Assembly (NCBI RefSeq): GCF_014836985.1
Contig: NZ_JACSPU010000004.1
Location: forward strand, 1-64,000
Source of the DNA: Planococcus wigleyi
Lineage (GTDB): Bacteria; Bacillota; Bacilli; Bacillales_A; Planococcaceae
Direction: 5' to 3'
Length of the DNA: 64,000 nt
Numbering within the stretch: the stretch's first letter is position 1; each line of letters begins with the position of its first letter. The position numbers were made by a program, and so were the translations under genes. Shown here in pieces: positions 20,258-28,650 of the stretch. The notes under the pieces were generated by a model that was not told where the DNA came from, did not search any database, and saw nothing but the letters and a program-made list of their open reading frames with translations.

Positions 20258-20429
20258 GCAAATTCCTCCAGTCACTAATCTTTTGTTACCTAATGTATTC
20301 CCGGATTTTCAAAAAAGTGAACTAAATTTGCCTTTAATGCGTTTTATAAGTAATAGCAGCTTAAGGACAAAAAAAGCGATATGGCGATATACAATTCAGT
20401 ATCAACTGGCCGTATTGGAGCGTATTTAA

Positions 20430-20511: not shown

Positions 20512-21078
20512 ATGGAAAAAAGTACCGATACATATTTATATATGCGAATCAGCGAACAGGACAAAGCGGCATTGGAGCAATTATACGACCGCTATGAAAA
20601 AATCTTGTTTTCTTTTCTCTACAAGATGCTGGAAGATCGCGAACTGGCAGAAGAAGCCTTGCAGGAAGTGTTTATCAAGATTTGGCGGGGCAAAGGGATT
20701 TACGATGAAAGCAAAGGCAAGTTTACATCATGGCTCTTCAGAATGGCGCAGAATACGGCCATCGATTTAATCAGGAAACGCAAAAAGCCTTCTGTTCCGA
20801 TTGAAGAGGCGATGCAAATGGCCAGCCACGATCTGCCTGTTGACGAGCAGGTGGAATGGAAGGAAAAGAAAGGCCAAATTGAAACAGCCGTCCAGCGTCT
20901 ATCGAGTGAACAGCAAAAAATGATTGATTTGTTTTATTTCAAAGGCCATACACACGAAACAATCGCGGACATGTGTGACATTCCGCTAGGGACCGTTAAG
21001 AGCCGAATACGACTGGCATTAAAGAAATTAAAAACATCACTGCACGGAATGCAGGGAAGGGGGGCATATGATGACTAA
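20512..21078 (+). CDS. ECF-type RNA polymerase sigma factor
   Basis: A 188-residue sigma-70 family protein. Region 2 lies at about 20-90, with YDRYEKILFSFLYKML, EEALQEVFIKIW and FTSWLFRMAQNTAIDLIR. Region 4 lies at about 125-178, with LSSEQQKMIDLFYFKGHTHETIA and the recognition helix GTVKSRIRLALKKL. There is no region 1.1 or 3, so it is ECF type, resembling SigK/RpoE groups paired with RskA-like anti-sigma factors. Ribosome site GGGAGACCGGGG. Its stop overlaps the anti-sigma start, the usual one-to-one arrangement. Targets probably include the wall protein at 21907. Confidence 0.9.
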   Translation: MEKSTDTYLYMRISEQDKAALEQLYDRYEKILFSFLYKMLEDRELAEEALQEVFIKIWRGKGIYDESKGKFTSWLFRMAQNTAIDLIRKRKKPSVPIEEAMQMASHDLPVDEQVEWKEKKGQIETAVQRLSSEQQKMIDLFYFKGHTHETIADMCDIPLGTVKSRIRLALKKLKTSLHGMQGRGAYDD

Positions 21079-21790
21079 TATGGATTGTGATCAACTAATT
21101 GACTATCTGAATGGAACCTTATCAAAAAATGATACGGACCAATTTGAACAACATTTAACATCCTGTACAGAATGCCAGGAAATCGTTGAAGCGACAGGCC
21201 AGCTCCCTTATCTTGCAGATCCAATGGAACCGCCGGCAGGCATGAAATCACGTATCCTGTCCAATGTATTCGAAGGGACACCAGAAAAAAACGATTCCCC
21301 TGTAGCATTAAAACCAGAAATGGCTGCCATACCGATTCAAAAGCCTAAACAAAAGTTTCACATCGGGAAGCCACTGATTGCAGCGGTCCTGCTTGCTTCA
21401 TTATTGGGTAATGCTTATGCATTCATGCAATTATCAGATCAGAATCAAGAACCGGAAACGGCGATACAGTCAATTGAATTAGAGCCGAGTGCTGCATTTT
21501 CCGGAACCGCAACGGCGGCAATGATAGAAGAACAAGGAGCATTGAACCTTGTGGTGAAAGCCGACCAATTGGCCGAATTGGATGCCAGCCAGGTTTACCA
21601 GGTATGGCTGATCAAAGATGACAAACCGATACCAGCCGGCGCATTCTCTCCTAATCCGAACGGTGAAGGGGCCAGCTATTATCAACTAGAAGAATCCTCA
21701 GCAGAATGGGATACCATCGCCATTACGCTCGAGCCCGAGGCAGGGAATGAATTGCCGAAAGGTGAAGTTGTACTGAGTTCAGAGATTTAA
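21071..21790 (+). CDS. Anti-sigma factor, zinc-finger plus RskA-type membrane protein
   Basis: A 239-residue single-pass membrane protein. The N-terminal cytosolic part has the ZAS motif HLTSCTEC (HxxxCxxC) about residue 28-35, which binds zinc and holds the sigma factor. One hydrophobic helix lies at about 100-120. The outer domain (about 130-239) has the anti-sigma-K RskA pattern VYQVWLIKDDKPIPAGAF. These factors usually release sigma after proteolysis or redox change. It overlaps the sigma gene by a few bases; ATG 21068 is also possible. Ends at a terminator overlapping the next base. Confidence 0.88.
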   Translation: MTNMDCDQLIDYLNGTLSKNDTDQFEQHLTSCTECQEIVEATGQLPYLADPMEPPAGMKSRILSNVFEGTPEKNDSPVALKPEMAAIPIQKPKQKFHIGKPLIAAVLLASLLGNAYAFMQLSDQNQEPETAIQSIELEPSAAFSGTATAAMIEEQGALNLVVKADQLAELDASQVYQVWLIKDDKPIPAGAFSPNPNGEGASYYQLEESSAEWDTIAITLEPEAGNELPKGEVVLSSEI

Positions 21791-21819
21791 ACTGGCCGCA
21801 TTAGCGGCCAGTTTTTTTA
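21791..21819 (+). terminator. Terminator of the sigma/anti-sigma operon
   Basis: ACTGGCCGC and GCGGCCAGT arms, ATTA loop, seven T. Confidence 0.85.
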
Positions 21820-21906
21820 TTTAAATTCTTTTTTAAAAAAATGTGATCTAAATGAAAACACTCTCCGTTATGTCTATGAAACTATAAAAAAAGAGGAGAG
21901 ATGAAC

Positions 21907-23268
21907 ATGAAATTAAATAAATGTCTTTTAGCACTTCCACTATCATTGGCTTTATTGGTACCAACAGCAGCATTGGCGGATAGCCACGGTGGCCATTCGG
22001 CATCAAGTGAATCGGCGATGGAATCAAGCACTGCAACACCTGCAGCAGAATTGCGCATCACTCTTGATACAGCATTGACGGAACATGCTTTTTTAGCAAT
22101 TGAAACGATGCGCAAAGGAGCGGATGGAGCAGAAGATTTCGACCAGGCTTCAGCAGCGCTTTTAGCCAACTCGGATGATATCGCAGCAGCAGTCTCTTCT
22201 GTTTATGGAGAAGAAGGCGGAGCAGCTTTCCTTGAAATCTGGAACTCCCACATCGGCTATTTCGTGGACTATGTAGTAGCAACAGGTGAGGACAACCAAG
22301 AAGCGAAAGACCAGGCATTGGCTTCACTGGAAGAATACAAACAGGAGCAAGCAGCTTTCTTCGATACGGCAACGGAAGGAAGATTGCCAGCTGATGCTGT
22401 ACTGGAAGGTTTGAACATGCACGTGGATCAGTTGGTTATGGCTTTTGATGATTATGTAGCGGGTGACTTTGAAGCGGCTTACACGGGCGAACGCGAATCT
22501 ATCCACCACATGAGCATGTTTGCTGAAAGTTTGTCCGTTGCGATTGCAGATCAATTCCCGGATGTATTTGAAGGAACAAATCCTGATACACCTGCAGTTG
22601 ATCTTCGTGCACAGCTGAATATGACATTTACAGAACATGCAGGGCTTGCAGCGATGGCGATGCAGGACGGCGCGGATGGCGCTGAAAGTTTCGACCAGGC
22701 TTCAGCAGCACTTCTTGCCAATGCAGATGATCTTTCTGCAGCAGTAGGATCTGTTTACGGCGAAGAAGCTGGAGCCCAATTCTCTGAAATCTGGAATTCA
22801 CACATCGGCTACTTTGTGGATTATGTGGTAGCGACCGGTGAAGGTGATGCAGAAGCGCAGGAACAAGCGAAAGCGGATCTTGACGCCTATATCGTAGAAC
22901 AGGCTGCCTTATTGGATGCAGCGACCGAAGGCCGCATTCCGGCAGCGGATTTTGAAGCCGGTTTGACAGCACACGTCGATCAATTGCTTGTGGCTTTTGA
23001 TTCGTATGTAGCGGGGGATTACGAGACAGCTTACAGCTCGATTCGTGAAGCATACGCGCATATGACTATGCCGGCAGCGGGACTGTCAGCGGCGATTGTT
23101 GACCAGTTCCCGGAAGAGTTCAGTTCCACAGAAATGCCTTCAGAAATGCCTGCAACGGGTATGGGCGGCACAGCTGATTCCGGCACGATTCCATACTTGT
23201 GGATTTTGGCTGGCCTGATGCTTGCTGGATTGACTACAACCCTGGCATTGCGTTTCCGCAAACAATAA
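21907..23268 (+). CDS. Secreted wall-anchored protein with two four-histidine helical repeats
   Basis: A 453-residue exported protein. Signal peptide 1-24 ends in AALA, followed by a His/Ser-rich DSHGGHSASS. Two tandem repeats follow, about 48-221 and 232-405, offset by exactly 184 residues with no gaps. Each has His at the same four places: in TEHA, EIWNSHIGYFVDY, HVDQL and the E-x(4 or so)-HM helix, i.e. 60/115/172/201 and 244/299/356/385. Predicted mostly helical, so each repeat may be a four-helix metal- or haem-binding bundle. The end has a sortase-like MPATG, a 20-residue hydrophobic helix and RFRKQ. Family not recognised with certainty. It lies 116 bases after the ECF/anti-sigma pair and may be their target. 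Start from GAGGAG eight bases upstream. Confidence 0.7.
   Translation: MKLNKCLLALPLSLALLVPTAALADSHGGHSASSESAMESSTATPAAELRITLDTALTEHAFLAIETMRKGADGAEDFDQASAALLANSDDIAAAVSSVYGEEGGAAFLEIWNSHIGYFVDYVVATGEDNQEAKDQALASLEEYKQEQAAFFDTATEGRLPADAVLEGLNMHVDQLVMAFDDYVAGDFEAAYTGERESIHHMSMFAESLSVAIADQFPDVFEGTNPDTPAVDLRAQLNMTFTEHAGLAAMAMQDGADGAESFDQASAALLANADDLSAAVGSVYGEEAGAQFSEIWNSHIGYFVDYVVATGEGDAEAQEQAKADLDAYIVEQAALLDAATEGRIPAADFEAGLTAHVDQLLVAFDSYVAGDYETAYSSIREAYAHMTMPAAGLSAAIVDQFPEEFSSTEMPSEMPATGMGGTADSGTIPYLWILAGLMLAGLTTTLALRFRKQ
22042..23115 (+). repeat. Tandem 552-bp coding duplication
   Basis: The two halves of the wall protein gene are in-frame copies with a constant 552-base offset and no insertion or deletion. 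Stretches such as EIWNSHIGYFVDYVVATGE are identical. The codons have drifted apart, so the duplication is old enough to have accumulated silent changes. Confidence 0.8.
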
Positions 23269-23287: not shown

Positions 23288-23338
23288 AAAGGCTGTTCCA
23301 AAGCTGCACAAGCGGGCTATTGGAACAGCCTTTTTTTA
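23288..23338 (+). terminator. Terminator of the wall protein gene
   Basis: AAGGCTGTTCCAA and TTGGAACAGCCTT arms around a 19-base loop, then seven T. The remaining bases to 23570 contain no gene I can support. Confidence 0.8.
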
Positions 23339-23622: not shown

Positions 23623-23749
23623 AAACAGTATATAGTAAACAGAAGGTATGAGCAGAGCCTGGGGTTCAATAGCTCGAGGAATCAACAAATGCGAATATGC
23701 AGTTGATGATAGGCGCAATAAGCACAAAACTATTATTTTTTTATTCTGT

Positions 23750-23770
23750 AAATCGTAATGATTACTTTTA
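23750..23770 (+). promoter_or_regulatory. Second Zur-box-like operator
   Basis: The core TCGTAATGATTAC matches the left half and centre of the Zur consensus exactly; the last part is TT instead of GA. It matches 17 of 20 specified positions. It lies 20 bases before the GTG start of the binding protein, so it could also affect a second promoter or transcription elongation. Confidence 0.6.
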
Positions 23771-23789
23771 TTTGAGGAGAGTAGAGAAC

Positions 23790-25313
23790 GTGAAAAAAGA
23801 AGTGGGTTTACTGTTGCTTATGATTTTATTCGTATTGGCCGGCTGTACATCGGCTACAGAAGGGCAGCAGAGTGACAATCCGAAAGAGCTCGAACTATTG
23901 TTCAATTTTGCGGCGCGGTCACTTGATCCCAATGTGGACAGCAGTTATGTACCGCTTCGAGCAGGAATCACGGAAACTTTGGTGCATCTGAATGACGATA
24001 CGCTGAAGCTGGAGCCGTGGCTTGCTGAAAGTTGGGAAAGTGAAGATGGACAAGAATGGATCATCCAATTGAAAAAAGGCGTTACATTCCAAAATGGCAA
24101 CCCGATGGATGGGAAAGCGGTGAAAGCATCATTAGAGCGTTCCATAAAGGACAACGTGGCCATCAAAAATGCGCTCCGCATAGCAACGATTGAAGCGGAT
24201 GGCTTACAGCTGACAATAAAGACAATTTCACCGTTTCCAGAATTTCCATCTGAATTGGTCCATCCGAATACTTCAATTATCGACGTCACCGAACCTGATT
24301 TTATCAACAAACCGGAAGGCACAGGACCGTTTGCTGTTTCGTCGTTTATACCCGGTACAGCCGTGGATTTGGTCCGGTACGACGGCTATTGGGATGGGGT
24401 TGCCAAGTTAGAGGCTGCCAGGTTTTCGTTTAACGAAGACGCCAATGCCAGGTCGCTGGCACTTGAATCGGGGAATGCGGATATTGTTTTTCGTCCGGAA
24501 GTCCAAAACCTGGAGATTCTGGAAGCTTTGCCAGGCATCAAAGTGGAATCCACTTCCACTTTCCGTGTCCACCAAATGACGATGAACCTGGAACGGGAAA
24601 CGATGAAAGATATCCATGTCCGAAAAGCAGTTGATGTGCTGGTTAATCGCCAATCGATTGCTGAAACGATCTTGAAGGGACATGCTGAAGTGGCAGAAGG
24701 CCCGTTTCCCTCAACATTTTCATTTGCTCCGGATTATCCTGAAAAATTAACGGGACTGGAATATGCGAAAGATCTTTTAGCACAAGGCGGATACGAGATA
24801 AAAGAAGGTGTGATGGAAAAGCAAGGAAAACCATTGGTTCTTACCTTATTGACCTATAGTGCACGTGCGGATTTGCCGCTGATTGCACAAGTCTTTCAAT
24901 CGGACGCCAAGCAATTAGGTATTGCAGTGGATATCCAGCAAATTGAGGTTCCCGAAGAATACATGGCCGCCAACCGCGATTGGGATTTGGCGACTTACAG
25001 CAACTTAACAGCGCCTCGTGGAGATGCAGGCTATTATTTGAATGCCACTTATCATCCGCATGGCGCATTGAATTTCAGCGGTGCGGATGATGCTGCATTG
25101 ACAGCGCTGATTGACGAGTTGAATAAGACAGTAGGACAAGAAGCGCGTTCGGCCATCGCTGAAGAAATTGCACTTTATGTAGATGAACAAGTTTACAATT
25201 CATTTATTCTTCATCCCAATACATTGGTCGCTTACAACGCAGATAAAGTAGAGAATTGGGTAACGTCACGAAGCGAGTATTATATGTTGACCCATACGTT
25301 GGATGTGAAGTAA
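23790..25313 (+). CDS. Lipoprotein substrate-binding protein, nickel/peptide (SBP_bac_5) family, probable zinc or zincophore importer
   Basis: A 507-residue lipoprotein. The signal peptide ends in the lipobox VLAGC about residue 21. The SBP_bac_5 domain follows, with ITETLVHLNDDTLKLEPWLAESWE and FQNGNPMDGKAVKASLERS as signature blocks near the N-terminus, as in NikA/CntA and OppA. Binding residues cannot be assigned by eye. GTG start at 23790 after GAGGAGAG; a longer frame begins inside the operator region. First gene of a five-gene ABC operon under two Zur-like sites, so the likely cargo is zinc, or zinc bound to a metallophore. No opine metallophore genes are present here. Confidence 0.82.
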   Translation: MKKEVGLLLLMILFVLAGCTSATEGQQSDNPKELELLFNFAARSLDPNVDSSYVPLRAGITETLVHLNDDTLKLEPWLAESWESEDGQEWIIQLKKGVTFQNGNPMDGKAVKASLERSIKDNVAIKNALRIATIEADGLQLTIKTISPFPEFPSELVHPNTSIIDVTEPDFINKPEGTGPFAVSSFIPGTAVDLVRYDGYWDGVAKLEAARFSFNEDANARSLALESGNADIVFRPEVQNLEILEALPGIKVESTSTFRVHQMTMNLERETMKDIHVRKAVDVLVNRQSIAETILKGHAEVAEGPFPSTFSFAPDYPEKLTGLEYAKDLLAQGGYEIKEGVMEKQGKPLVLTLLTYSARADLPLIAQVFQSDAKQLGIAVDIQQIEVPEEYMAANRDWDLATYSNLTAPRGDAGYYLNATYHPHGALNFSGADDAALTALIDELNKTVGQEARSAIAEEIALYVDEQVYNSFILHPNTLVAYNADKVENWVTSRSEYYMLTHTLDVK

Positions 25314-26258
25314 ATGGCGCGTATTTTAATGGGAAGAGCCGCCGAAGTGATGGTTTTTCTGATAGCGGTCACCTTTGTCAGCTTCCTTTTTGCCAGGTTG
25401 GCTCCTGGAGATCCGGTATTGTCGATTCTTCGTGTTGATGATGTGTCCGTGACAACGGCGCAAGTAGAGACGTTGCGAGAGGAAATGGGATTTAATGAAC
25501 CGCTTCTCGTGCAATATGGTAATTGGTTCATGGATTTTGTAAAACTGGACTTTGGGAAGTCCTATCTGACCAACCAACCCGTTTTGGAAATGCTCCTGAG
25601 CGGGCTTCCGGCAACATTGGAACTGACTGTGGGTGCGCTAATGGTCATGCTACTCATTGCAGTTCCTTTAGGTTCTTTGGCGGCTATATACCGGAACAGT
25701 TGGATCGATCAAGTAAGCCGCTGGATTTCGTTGTTTGGAGCAGCGGTTCCAAGTTTTTGGCTCGGTCTGTTATTGATCGATCTCTTTGGAGTGCGCCTCA
25801 ATATGCTTCCGACTATGGGGCGTGATGGATTTGTTTCCATATTGTTGCCGTCGGTTACACTGGGCCTTGCCATTACGAGTGTATATGTCAGATTGCTGCG
25901 TTCCAGTTTGATTGATGCTTTAAGCAATGATTACATAAAAGCGGCTCGTTCGAGAGGGATTTCCGAAGTGCAGATTTTTTTCTTCCATGCCTTGCGGGCT
26001 GCCTTGCCGCCGGTGATCACCGTTTTTGGCGTCAGTCTAGGCAGTTTAATCGGCGGTGTAGTCGTCATCGAAGTGATTTTTGCCTACCCAGGAATCGGCA
26101 AAATGGTGGTGGAAGCCATCAGAGCACGGGACTACCCGGTCATTCAAGGGTACCTGTTCCTGATGGCCGTCATTGTATTTATTGTCAACAGCCTGGTTGA
26201 CATCTCATACCGCTACTTAAATCCTAGAATCAGAATGCAGGAAAGGAAGGAAAGCTAA
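25314..26258 (+). CDS. ABC importer permease, NikB/CntB type
   Basis: A 314-residue inner membrane permease of the DppB/NikB class. It has a first helix, an outer loop with RLAPGDPVLSILRVDD, then five more helices and the EAA-type loop SNDYIKAARSRGISEVQIFFFHALRAALPPV that contacts the ATPase. The start ATG directly follows the stop of the binding protein gene, so the genes are translationally linked. Pairs with the next permease. Confidence 0.9.
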   Translation: MARILMGRAAEVMVFLIAVTFVSFLFARLAPGDPVLSILRVDDVSVTTAQVETLREEMGFNEPLLVQYGNWFMDFVKLDFGKSYLTNQPVLEMLLSGLPATLELTVGALMVMLLIAVPLGSLAAIYRNSWIDQVSRWISLFGAAVPSFWLGLLLIDLFGVRLNMLPTMGRDGFVSILLPSVTLGLAITSVYVRLLRSSLIDALSNDYIKAARSRGISEVQIFFFHALRAALPPVITVFGVSLGSLIGGVVVIEVIFAYPGIGKMVVEAIRARDYPVIQGYLFLMAVIVFIVNSLVDISYRYLNPRIRMQERKES

Positions 26259-27097
26259 TGGCCGTTTTGAAAATGAAAATCAGAAAGCGGAATTGGAAAG
26301 CCGGAATGTTGGTTACGCTTTTTATCCTGGTGGGCTTCCTTGCAGCCTATACTTTTCTTTTCCTGAAACATGATGCGGATATGGTAGATCTGAATTCGCG
26401 GCTATCGCCGATGAGCCTGCTGCATCCGTTTGGGACTGACCATCTTGGCCGTGACGTAATGACACGGATTTTTCTGGGCGCACAGCAGACTGTAGGATAT
26501 GCCTTCATGGCATTAGCGGCAGCAGTGGTGATCGGTTTGCCGATCGGATTGGTGGCCGGTTATAAAGGCGGGATAATAGAACGGATCCTGATGCGCATTG
26601 CAGATGCATTTCTCGCTTTTCCGGATACGATTGTGGCGATTGTCTTAAGCGGACTAATGGGACCGGGTATTGAAAACCTTTTACTGGCCATCGTCTTTGT
26701 CAAATGGGTCAATTATGCCCGCCTTATCAGAAGCACGGTAGTCAATGAGCGGGGAAAAGAATATATAGCCATGGCGAAAGTCAATGGATTGAGCGACGGA
26801 CAGATTATGCGCAAACATATTTTCCCGCATATCATCGGCAATGTCTTAGTGCTTGCCAGCCTGGACCTGGGCAAAATCATCCTGCTGATTTCTTCATTGT
26901 CCTATATCGGCCTTGGTGCCCAGCCTCCAGCTCCGGAATGGGGAGCTATGCTGAATGATGCCCGCCCTTATTTTCAATCCATGCCTTCGTTAATGATTTA
27001 TCCTGGACTGGCGATTGTGACTGTGGTGCTCATTTCCAATGTTTCAGGCGATTATTTACGGGACAAATTCGATGTGAAAAAGGAAGTGCAGTTGTGA
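26258..27097 (+). CDS. ABC importer permease, NikC/CntC type
   Basis: A 279-residue permease of the DppC/NikC class with an N-terminal helix at about 15-35. HPFGTDHLGRDVMTRIFLGAQQT is the family's signature before the core helices; EYIAMAKVNGLSDGQIMRKHIFPHI is the EAA loop. Start and stop overlap as TAATG with the upstream permease. Confidence 0.9.
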   Translation: MAVLKMKIRKRNWKAGMLVTLFILVGFLAAYTFLFLKHDADMVDLNSRLSPMSLLHPFGTDHLGRDVMTRIFLGAQQTVGYAFMALAAAVVIGLPIGLVAGYKGGIIERILMRIADAFLAFPDTIVAIVLSGLMGPGIENLLLAIVFVKWVNYARLIRSTVVNERGKEYIAMAKVNGLSDGQIMRKHIFPHIIGNVLVLASLDLGKIILLISSLSYIGLGAQPPAPEWGAMLNDARPYFQSMPSLMIYPGLAIVTVVLISNVSGDYLRDKFDVKKEVQL

Positions 27098-27870
27098 ATT
27101 TACTGGAAGTTAACGAACTGACGATACAGGCGGCAACCCAACAAATTATGAAACGAATTTCGTTTACTGTAGAACCGGGAAACTGGTTGGCCATCGTCGG
27201 CCAAAGCGGCAGTGGGAAAAGCATGGCAACCTCAGCTATCGGCCAATTGCTGGCGCCGAATCTGAAAGCAGATGGAGAAATCCTAATTAATGGCAGTAAT
27301 CTCCTTAAAATGACTGCAAAGAAAATGAACGCCATACGCGGCAAGCAAATCGCTTATATATTCCAGGAATACCAAAACTCGTTTACGCCATTTATGACCA
27401 TCGGCAAGCATTTTGAGGAGTATCAGCGAACCCATCTCCAAGTGTCAAAGACTCAACGACTTCAAAATAGGCGGCAGGCACTCGCTTCTGTCGGACTTGG
27501 AGAGGAATTCGCCGACCGCTATCCCTTTCAGCTGAGCGGTGGCCAACTGCAGCGTACAGCCATTGCTCTTGCACTGTTGCTGAAACCCGCTTTGGTGATC
27601 GCTGACGAACCGACAACCGCTCTGGATAGCATCTCCTCATTCAGAATCCTGCAATTGCTGGAACGTTTACAGAAAGAGACGGGCTGTGCCATTCTCCATA
27701 TCACACATGATCTGCGGCATGCAGCTAACTATGCAGATCAAGTTTTAGTGATGAAAGAAGGCAGCATACTTGAGCAGGGAGACCGGTTACAGATTATGGA
27801 GTTTCCTCAGCATGCCTACACAAAATCTTTGCTCGAAGCAATACCAAGCTTTGGTCAGGCTGGAGAATAA
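27094..27870 (+). CDS. ABC importer ATPase, NikD/CntD type
   Basis: A 258-residue ATPase. Walker A GQSGSGKSM about residue 35, Q-loop FQEYQNSFTP, signature LSGGQLQRTAIALAL, Walker B LVIADEPTTALD and the switch His in ITHDLRHAA. GTG start overlapping the preceding stop by four bases. Forms a heterodimer with the next ATPase. Confidence 0.9.
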   Translation: MNLLEVNELTIQAATQQIMKRISFTVEPGNWLAIVGQSGSGKSMATSAIGQLLAPNLKADGEILINGSNLLKMTAKKMNAIRGKQIAYIFQEYQNSFTPFMTIGKHFEEYQRTHLQVSKTQRLQNRRQALASVGLGEEFADRYPFQLSGGQLQRTAIALALLLKPALVIADEPTTALDSISSFRILQLLERLQKETGCAILHITHDLRHAANYADQVLVMKEGSILEQGDRLQIMEFPQHAYTKSLLEAIPSFGQAGE

Positions 27871-27888
27871 ACGGACGGAGGGGAAAAG

Positions 27889-28650
27889 ATGGAGGTAATG
27901 AACATCAGCCGTGTCACGAAAACATTTTCAACTGGCAGGCAGGTATTGGATGACGTTTCATTTTCTTTGGAAAAAGGCCAATGCGTCGGAATTATCGGGG
28001 AGAGCGGATGCGGCAAAAGTACGCTTGCCCGCTGTTTGCTGCAATTGGAGAAAATTGATTCAGGTGAAATTTCATTGAACGGCCAACTGCTGCAAGATTT
28101 ATCCGCAAAGGAACTGAAACCATTCAGGCAGCAGATCCAAGCCGTTTTCCAAAATCCTTCCGCTTCACTCAATCCAAAATTAAAGATACGGGATTCTTTG
28201 ATGGATCCTTATCTGCAATTTGGCAGCCAGAAGGAAATGCAGCATTTCAGCTATACGAGCAATGAGCAGTACGTCCATCAGCTCTTGCAGGCTGTTGAAC
28301 TTCCAGCATGCCTGGCTGACCGGTATCCGCATGAATTGAGCGGTGGCCAACAGCAGCGTGCGGCAATCTGCCGCGCTATCAGCATTGAACCCGATGTCGT
28401 CATTATGGATGAACCGACTTCAAGCCTGGATGTCCTGTCACAGGCCTCCTTGCTAAAGCTGCTGGAGACACTTCGCCAGCAATTTTCATTGTCCTATGTA
28501 TTCATTTCACACGATCTGGCAGCTGTTGCTTCGCTAAGCCAACACTTGCTGGTCATGAAGGAAGGGCGCATGATTGATGCTTTTCCAACTGAAGAACTTT
28601 TTTCGCCTAGACGCCATTCCTATACGAAAGAATTGGTTTCCATGTATTGA
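27889..28650 (+). CDS. ABC importer ATPase, NikE/CntF type
   Basis: A 253-residue ATPase. Walker A GESGCGKSTLARCLL, Q-loop FQNPSASLNPKL, signature LSGGQQQRAAICRAI, Walker B VIMDEPTSSLD, H-loop ISHDLAAVA. GGAGGGG before the ATG. Completes the five-gene importer. A MATE gene follows after 77 bases with no clear terminator between, so read-through is possible. Confidence 0.9.
   Translation: MEVMNISRVTKTFSTGRQVLDDVSFSLEKGQCVGIIGESGCGKSTLARCLLQLEKIDSGEISLNGQLLQDLSAKELKPFRQQIQAVFQNPSASLNPKLKIRDSLMDPYLQFGSQKEMQHFSYTSNEQYVHQLLQAVELPACLADRYPHELSGGQQQRAAICRAISIEPDVVIMDEPTSSLDVLSQASLLKLLETLRQQFSLSYVFISHDLAAVASLSQHLLVMKEGRMIDAFPTEELFSPRRHSYTKELVSMY

Follow-up and report, generated by a model that had tools for sequence, protein, structure and literature searches.

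We examined a 64,000-nucleotide stretch of Planococcus wigleyi DNA (positions 1 to 64,000 of contig NZ_JACSPU010000004.1; hereafter, the window) in which genes for an extracytoplasmic function (ECF) sigma factor and an overlapping RskA-like anti-sigma factor precede a gene for a secreted, wall-sorted protein, here called W, that carries two helical repeats with four histidines each. Together with a class-F-type sortase encoded elsewhere in the genome, these genes probably form a self-contained surface-display switch, in which the sigma/anti-sigma pair would drive W and the sortase dedicated to it, and W would likely bind metal or haem. Comparison across genomes strongly supports a narrow predicted regulon that consists of one wall protein family and the sortase belonging to it. 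As judged from its family, the membrane anti-sigma factor would hold the ECF sigma factor until an extracellular signal released it; free sigma would then read GTGATCY-AA-N14-CGTTA before W genes, and before the sortase gene or in operon with it, and would read a variant of this promoter before its own gene. W would be exported, the sortase would cut its MPxTGxGG signal and attach it to the wall, and the two displayed four-histidine bundles would most likely bind metal (e.g. copper) or haem, which is the weakest step; the bound metal or haem would thereby be buffered or kept off the membrane. A unit of sigma, anti-sigma, W and sortase was not found described in the accessible portions of the literature searched, and it may be mentioned in papers beyond these.

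The initial annotation had proposed that W's own promoter could be read by the sigma factor, and conservation of the motif, together with its co-occurrence with sigma, supports this. The consensus 5' of W genes comprises an A-tract, GTGATCYAAa and CGTTA, with a spacing of 16 bases from TGATCY to CGTTA, and sigma genes of other genera share this block in the DNA 5' of their starts. In the genome to which the window belongs, the exact form TGATCY-N16-CGTTA had eight matches versus one for the reversed control, and GTGATCYAA-N14-CGTT had only two, one before each of the two W genes of this genome. Among 46 same-genus genomes the strict form GTGATCY-AA-N14-CGTT gave 96 matches and the reversed control three. 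Seventy-seven lay before W (75 of these at 33–50 bases from the start), 11 before sortase (129–144 bases) and one before sigma; seven were unassigned by coordinates. Three of the seven belong to W genes cut by contig ends, two as read in L244 and L247 and the third, G017:C30:105, presumably so, lying just 3' of an anti-sigma gene at a contig end. With these, 92 of the 96 strict matches are assignable to W, the dedicated sortase or sigma (copper genes were for this reason not taken up as members of the regulon), and the four unexplained matches are close in number to the three of the reversed control. All 43 genomes with W have a strict match, at W, sortase or sigma in 42 of them. A spacer one base shorter, used as a spacing control, gave one match in 22 same-genus genomes and one in 14 others.

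For the comparison beyond the genus, 302 confirmed loci were reduced to 80, of which 54 are from other genera and the other 26 from the Planococcus group. All 33 strict matches in the 54 other-genus loci lay before W (22) or sigma (11), with none in the control, and the motif was found before the sigma gene in 20 of the 25 such loci with a sigma match (one of these 25, in L147, being a 108-residue fragment). A loose motif (TGATCY, 14–17 bases, CG) was present near W in 98 of 132 cases, near sigma in 26 of 63 and near the sortase gene in 9 of 69; many sortase genes lie 3' of W within one operon. The catalogue of upstream regions omitted 19 of the 30 loci L122–L151 as likely repeats of genomes already included, and L066 and L067 are near-identical. 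Because motif and sigma co-occur, we infer that this sigma factor very probably reads the promoter of W.

Comparison of the promoters upstream of 20512 and 21907, which had been suggested as a check, revealed the same spacing and a difference at two of 14 scored positions, the variant lying 167 bases 5' of the sigma start. The view that the sigma gene has no motif was dropped after mismatch scans found this two-difference variant. Matches of at most three differences (chance level about eight in the whole 64 kb window, both strands) were present from -350 to +90 bases of 33/35 Planococcus-group sigma genes; one remaining copy has four differences and that of L122 has six. By eye, and at the same spacing, GTGAACTA is found at 28/35 of these genes and a TGATCTA form at 6/35. 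The sigma factor may control its own gene, since a promoter variant of the same spacing lies before it, and conservation of the variant is consistent with positive feedback.

In a first sample, W was present in 33/36 same-genus genomes (the window's own included) and in 4/24 other genomes. Within the 46 same-genus genomes, W was found in 43, anti-sigma in 42 and sigma in 42 (one broken). All 42 genomes with the anti-sigma gene also have W, so that at the genome level W is not usually found without the sigma pair; a single W genome lacks the pair (G458) and in another it is broken (G002). Sigma, anti-sigma, W, dedicated sortase and motif are missing all together from G004, G023 and G034, which have zero motif matches. 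The three-gene order, sought in relatives as had been proposed, recurs in part. Anti-sigma is followed directly by W in 6/42 genomes of the genus, window included (G017 would be a seventh, cut by a contig end), and in 23 of the 54 other-genus loci, but the direct order is not seen in 36/42 same-genus genomes. In 36/42 genomes a W gene or the dedicated sortase is found no more than 5 kb from anti-sigma. Of the other-genus loci, W is followed directly by a sortase in 36, and 20 run anti-sigma, W, sortase, 17 of these also with sigma (both counts by eye); such rows were found in Rossellomorea, Metabacillus, Paenisporosarcina, Chryseomicrobium, Jeotgalibacillus and Bacillus. Co-occurrence and promoter conservation together support the proposal that sigma, anti-sigma and W act as one unit.

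The sortase likely belongs to this unit as well, which was not visible from the window alone. A second W gene in the same genome (contig C14), 42% identical to the window W and with the same promoter, is followed after 59 bases by a class-F-type sortase gene, whose product matches PF04203 (1.7e-23) and carries the catalytic His and Cys motifs AGHVDS and LITCTGDF; class F (NF033748) is the best among the sortase classes listed for it, at 134.4 bits, below the cut-off of 166. This dedicated sortase is full-length in 41/46 same-genus genomes (by eye) and partial in G462; the four genomes that lack the sigma pair do not have it but still carry a shorter sortase, 36–48% identical. The sorting signal of W, the co-occurrence and the gene order all suggest that it fixes W to the wall.

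Within the window, the order of sigma, overlapping anti-sigma, one terminator, a 116-base gap and W was confirmed in all its coordinates (Table 1). The sigma factor scored 4.4e-18 for PF04542 and 1.2e-13 for PF08281 (Pfam scan) and 106.9 bits for TIGR02937, sigma70-ECF (cut-off 42.9); PRK12519, SigK and similar group models of NCBIfam matched it, all below cut-off. The anti-sigma gene overlaps the sigma gene (21068 versus 21078), and its product scored 2.2e-6 for zf-HC2 and 1.8e-17 for RskA_C (Pfam scan) and 101 bits for NF052375 (cut-off 100), with an HxxxCxxC motif (zinc-type domain) at residues 28–35 and a single hydrophobic stretch near residues 101–119. The terminator hairpin between anti-sigma and W (21789–21814) has an 11 bp stem at -19.9 kcal/mol (z -6.6; 0/200 shuffles as good). 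W has an alternative in-frame ATG at 21901. Directly 3' of W lies a nickel-type ATP-binding cassette (ABC) transporter operon (23697–28650), as also in L033 and L034; its substrate-binding protein matches NF045468 at 689 bits (cut-off 600), the two permeases score above and the ATPases below cut-off.

Table 1. Coordinates of the sigma/anti-sigma/W features in the window (pLDDT, predicted local distance difference test score).
Feature	Position	Strand	Basis
Variant ECF-type promoter of sigma gene, GTGAACT-AA-N14-CGTTT	20317..20344	+	mismatch scan
ECF sigma factor gene, 188 residues	20512..21078	+	PF04542, PF08281, TIGR02937
RskA-like anti-sigma gene	21068..21790 (start 21068 or 21071)	+	zf-HC2, RskA_C, NF052375
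Intrinsic terminator between anti-sigma and W genes	21789..21821	+	terminator scan, folding
ECF-type promoter of W, GTGATCT-AA-N14-CGTTA	21843..21870	+	exact match; conserved before W genes
W gene; 453-residue secreted protein with wall-sorting signal and two helical repeats of four histidines each	21907..23268	+	
W repeat 1, residues 44-222, predicted helical domain	22036..22572	+	pLDDT 96.3
W repeat 2, residues 228-408	22588..23130	+	
MPATG sorting motif, then hydrophobic stretch, basic tail	23146..23160	+	
Likely terminator 3' of W: 11 bp inverted repeat and T run	23291..23337	+	sequence reading, scan (part)

W had been described as a secreted protein of no recognised family, and this was borne out in that Pfam, NCBIfam and PDB returned no family above cut-off; the sorting-signal model NF058571 gave a weak match (16.3 versus a cut-off of 29). 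All features expected for wall sorting are present, namely a hydrophobic N-terminal signal peptide, an xPxTG motif, a hydrophobic stretch and a basic tail, and the motif, MPxTGxGG, is non-standard for sorting and invariant across 26 aligned W proteins. The repeats are of about 180 residues, with histidines at 60/115/172/201 and 244/299/356/385, and a single repeat was modelled as a helical domain at high confidence. An alignment of 42 repeats (36 of 52 W-type repeats, four single-repeat relatives and two added later) spans relatives from Nocardioides and Methylocystis, the Methylocystis protein fitting the repeat profile at E 8e-29. His17, Asn45, Tyr57, Gly58 and His129 are identical in 42/42 of these repeats; His72 is found in 36 and His158 in 22. 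Single-repeat relatives in other Bacillota (L101, L103, L104, L107) keep three or four of the histidines, with all four in two of them. Haem maquettes and bd oxidases appeared in the fold listings and were not taken as evidence, being a common helical-bundle resemblance.

What W may bind is hinted at by its neighbours. Among 60 fetched loci, a CopC-cluster gene lies by W in seven and a cupredoxin-cluster gene in nine, eight of them adjacent (one member of each cluster was tested with Pfam); in Planococcus these genes adjoin extra W copies. In Exiguobacterium loci, W is surrounded by genes of PepSY, YtkA-like, CopC and CopD type; G458 has ureG and a nickel/peptide-type ABC operon (scoring below curated cut-offs) close to W. 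Copper and nickel genes next to W in some lineages, the nickel-type operon of the window among them, hint that W may handle metal, and the conserved histidines point the same way; our guess at the ligand would be copper first and haem second. It is possible, although short of probable, that W represents an undescribed, cross-phylum family of secreted four-histidine bundles which, with the ECF sigma factor, an RskA-like sensor and the sortase, makes up a metal- or haem-responsive wall shield. If so, the cell would on a signal coat its wall with covalently fixed metal-binding bundles.

Several observations weigh against the switch with metal or haem binding as proposed above. G458 (L242) has W and motif without sigma, anti-sigma or dedicated sortase, and at G002:C1:1536167-1537400 (L055) sigma and anti-sigma are broken and W and motif are kept; one W copy in G458 has lost residues from repeat 2. 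These two genomes represent natural tests of W function without its switch. Within the genus, 32 of 107 full-length W genes do not have the strict motif, although relaxed forms are found at some of them, and the sole strict match of G018 is one of the four unexplained ones, its W having a relaxed form only. In Exiguobacterium, copper linkage and sigma control were not seen on the same W copies, because those in copper clusters have no motif, and there is no sigma pair in the fetched flanks. No sigma gene was found in the annotated surroundings of the single-repeat relatives of Bradyrhizobium and Priestia. His158 is missing from about half of the aligned repeats, and fold searches with the whole model and with a single repeat gave only common helical-bundle resemblances, with no match naming a ligand.

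The rival that survives best keeps the same regulation and anchoring and makes W a metal-free structural shield, spacer or adhesin, with histidines that are structural or tune charge with pH; we consider it unlikely. In its favour are the helical, repeated and wall-sorted nature of W and the several near-identical copies carried by some genomes, as would suit an abundant coat. Outside Planococcus, copper genes are also absent from the surroundings of most W loci (CopC or cupredoxin matches in 5/54). However, two invariant and one near-invariant histidine are kept across phyla, single-domain relatives included, which would be unusual for a passive coat, and copper-gene neighbourhoods occur in two lineages.

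W had also been offered as either the main product of the unit or a sensor of metal, haem or redox state. We favour W as the main output rather than a sensor because W genes appear to be the chief motif targets wherever they are located; for metal, haem or redox sensing the support is indirect only. That ligand binding by W at the surface signals to the RskA_C domain and so releases sigma seems quite improbable to us. It would suit the position of W directly 3' of the pair in the window and five other same-genus genomes, and a relative that adjoins an ECF sigma gene on Methylocystis plasmids, but W is the most consistent motif target even in copies remote from the pair, which fits an output, most genomes of the genus do not have the direct order, and some have 3–7 W genes. 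Least credible of all is a chance neighbourhood of sigma, anti-sigma and W, with the W promoter read by a different sigma factor. G458 and G002, which retain W and motif although neither has an intact sigma gene, might suggest it. Against it stand the near-perfect co-occurrence, a gene order shared by many genera, the occurrence of this motif before sigma in other genera and its absence from the three genomes that have neither W nor the pair.

If the self-contained switch is accepted, a sigma factor of unknown purpose gains a narrow and testable target set, the class-F-type sortase gains a probable substrate of its own, and the regulon should become readable from the promoter motif in other Bacillales genomes.

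Extra copies and relatives of W were seen elsewhere. Distant W copies within one genome are 97–99.8% identical in coding DNA in four genomes and 84–97% in two more; the near-identical sets are L037:6254-7615 with L038:8141-9502; L044, L046 and L047; L040, L042 and L043; and L048, L050 and L051. In three pairs (G020, G014, G028) flank similarity falls to background within 0–90 bases, and the near-identical copies in these genomes keep the promoter motif in its strict or a one-base-variant form. This looks like gene conversion. Short free-standing anti-sigma-like open reading frames (72–126 residues) lie 3' of extra W copies (L035:9903-10157, L040:8530-8748, L044:8830-9051, L038:7603-7956, L056:8748-9128, L131:9529-9855); some retain HxxxCxxC, Pfam support was below cut-off in the two tested, and they may be soluble sigma brakes or relics. 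W genes are also plasmid-borne, at L251:5314-7437 (a 12 kb plasmid of Planococcus lenghuensis), L254 and L255, with recombinase genes in the same stretch; the accompanying gene encodes a class F sortase in L251 and L255 and a plastocyanin in L254, and the shorter sortases 3' of W relatives on the P. lenghuensis plasmids are annotated as class F. On two Methylocystis rosea plasmids (L253:5764-7390, L260:3264-4890), which encode the same two proteins and were counted as one case, a single-repeat secreted relative immediately precedes an ECF sigma gene, and in Nocardioides (L252:4388-6474) such a relative is near a gene annotated as sigma-70 (Pfam match below cut-off). From the one Methylocystis case, the link of W relatives to sigma genes may reach Alphaproteobacteria.

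Four known systems invite comparison. Some W relatives carry the public name 'copper amine oxidase', and a relative in L096 (another family of the same class) does fuse W repeats to PF07833 (Cu_amine_oxidN1); in the window W, however, the Pfam scan detected no PF07833 and no amine oxidase domain. W was therefore rejected as a copper amine oxidase, the name looks like annotation spill-over, and a widespread family would be freed from a misleading label. The dedicated sortase resembles class F sortases in its PF04203 domain and its best-scoring class model, but differs in falling below the cut-off of that model, in an extra C-terminal region and in its single substrate family. In staphylococcal Isd haem uptake, SrtB is a dedicated sortase that serves a ligand-binding wall protein under one regulator; that system is controlled by iron through Fur and uses NEAT beta domains. 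What the two share is the pairing of a wall protein with its own sortase under a single regulator; the difference lies in the ECF sigma factor and helical bundles found here.

The closest parallel is SigK-RskA of Mycobacterium tuberculosis, whose MPT70 and MPT83 targets are of fasciclin type; W had no fasciclin match in the Pfam scan. That system likewise has an ECF sigma factor beside an RskA_C membrane anti-sigma factor and exported proteins (MPT70/MPT83) as targets, and among NCBIfam models SigK ranks second for the window sigma factor, below cut-off. The target here is instead an unrelated helical four-histidine protein with a dedicated sortase, the window anti-sigma factor carries an HxxxCxxC motif, and the window sigma factor has a single cysteine (155) and no redox pair. 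The redox pair of M. tuberculosis SigK is at cysteines 133 and 183; such a pair occurs in 94% of ECF18 and 56% of ECF19 and is not strictly defining (PMC7509140). Sigma homologues in L186 and L137 have cysteines at 85/129/179. The unit would work like SigK-RskA with MPT70/MPT83, yet it is not filed as a SigK-RskA system because it differs in target type and in the cysteine pair; we regard it as a variant of the SigK/RskA-type surface-protein switch with a sortase of its own.

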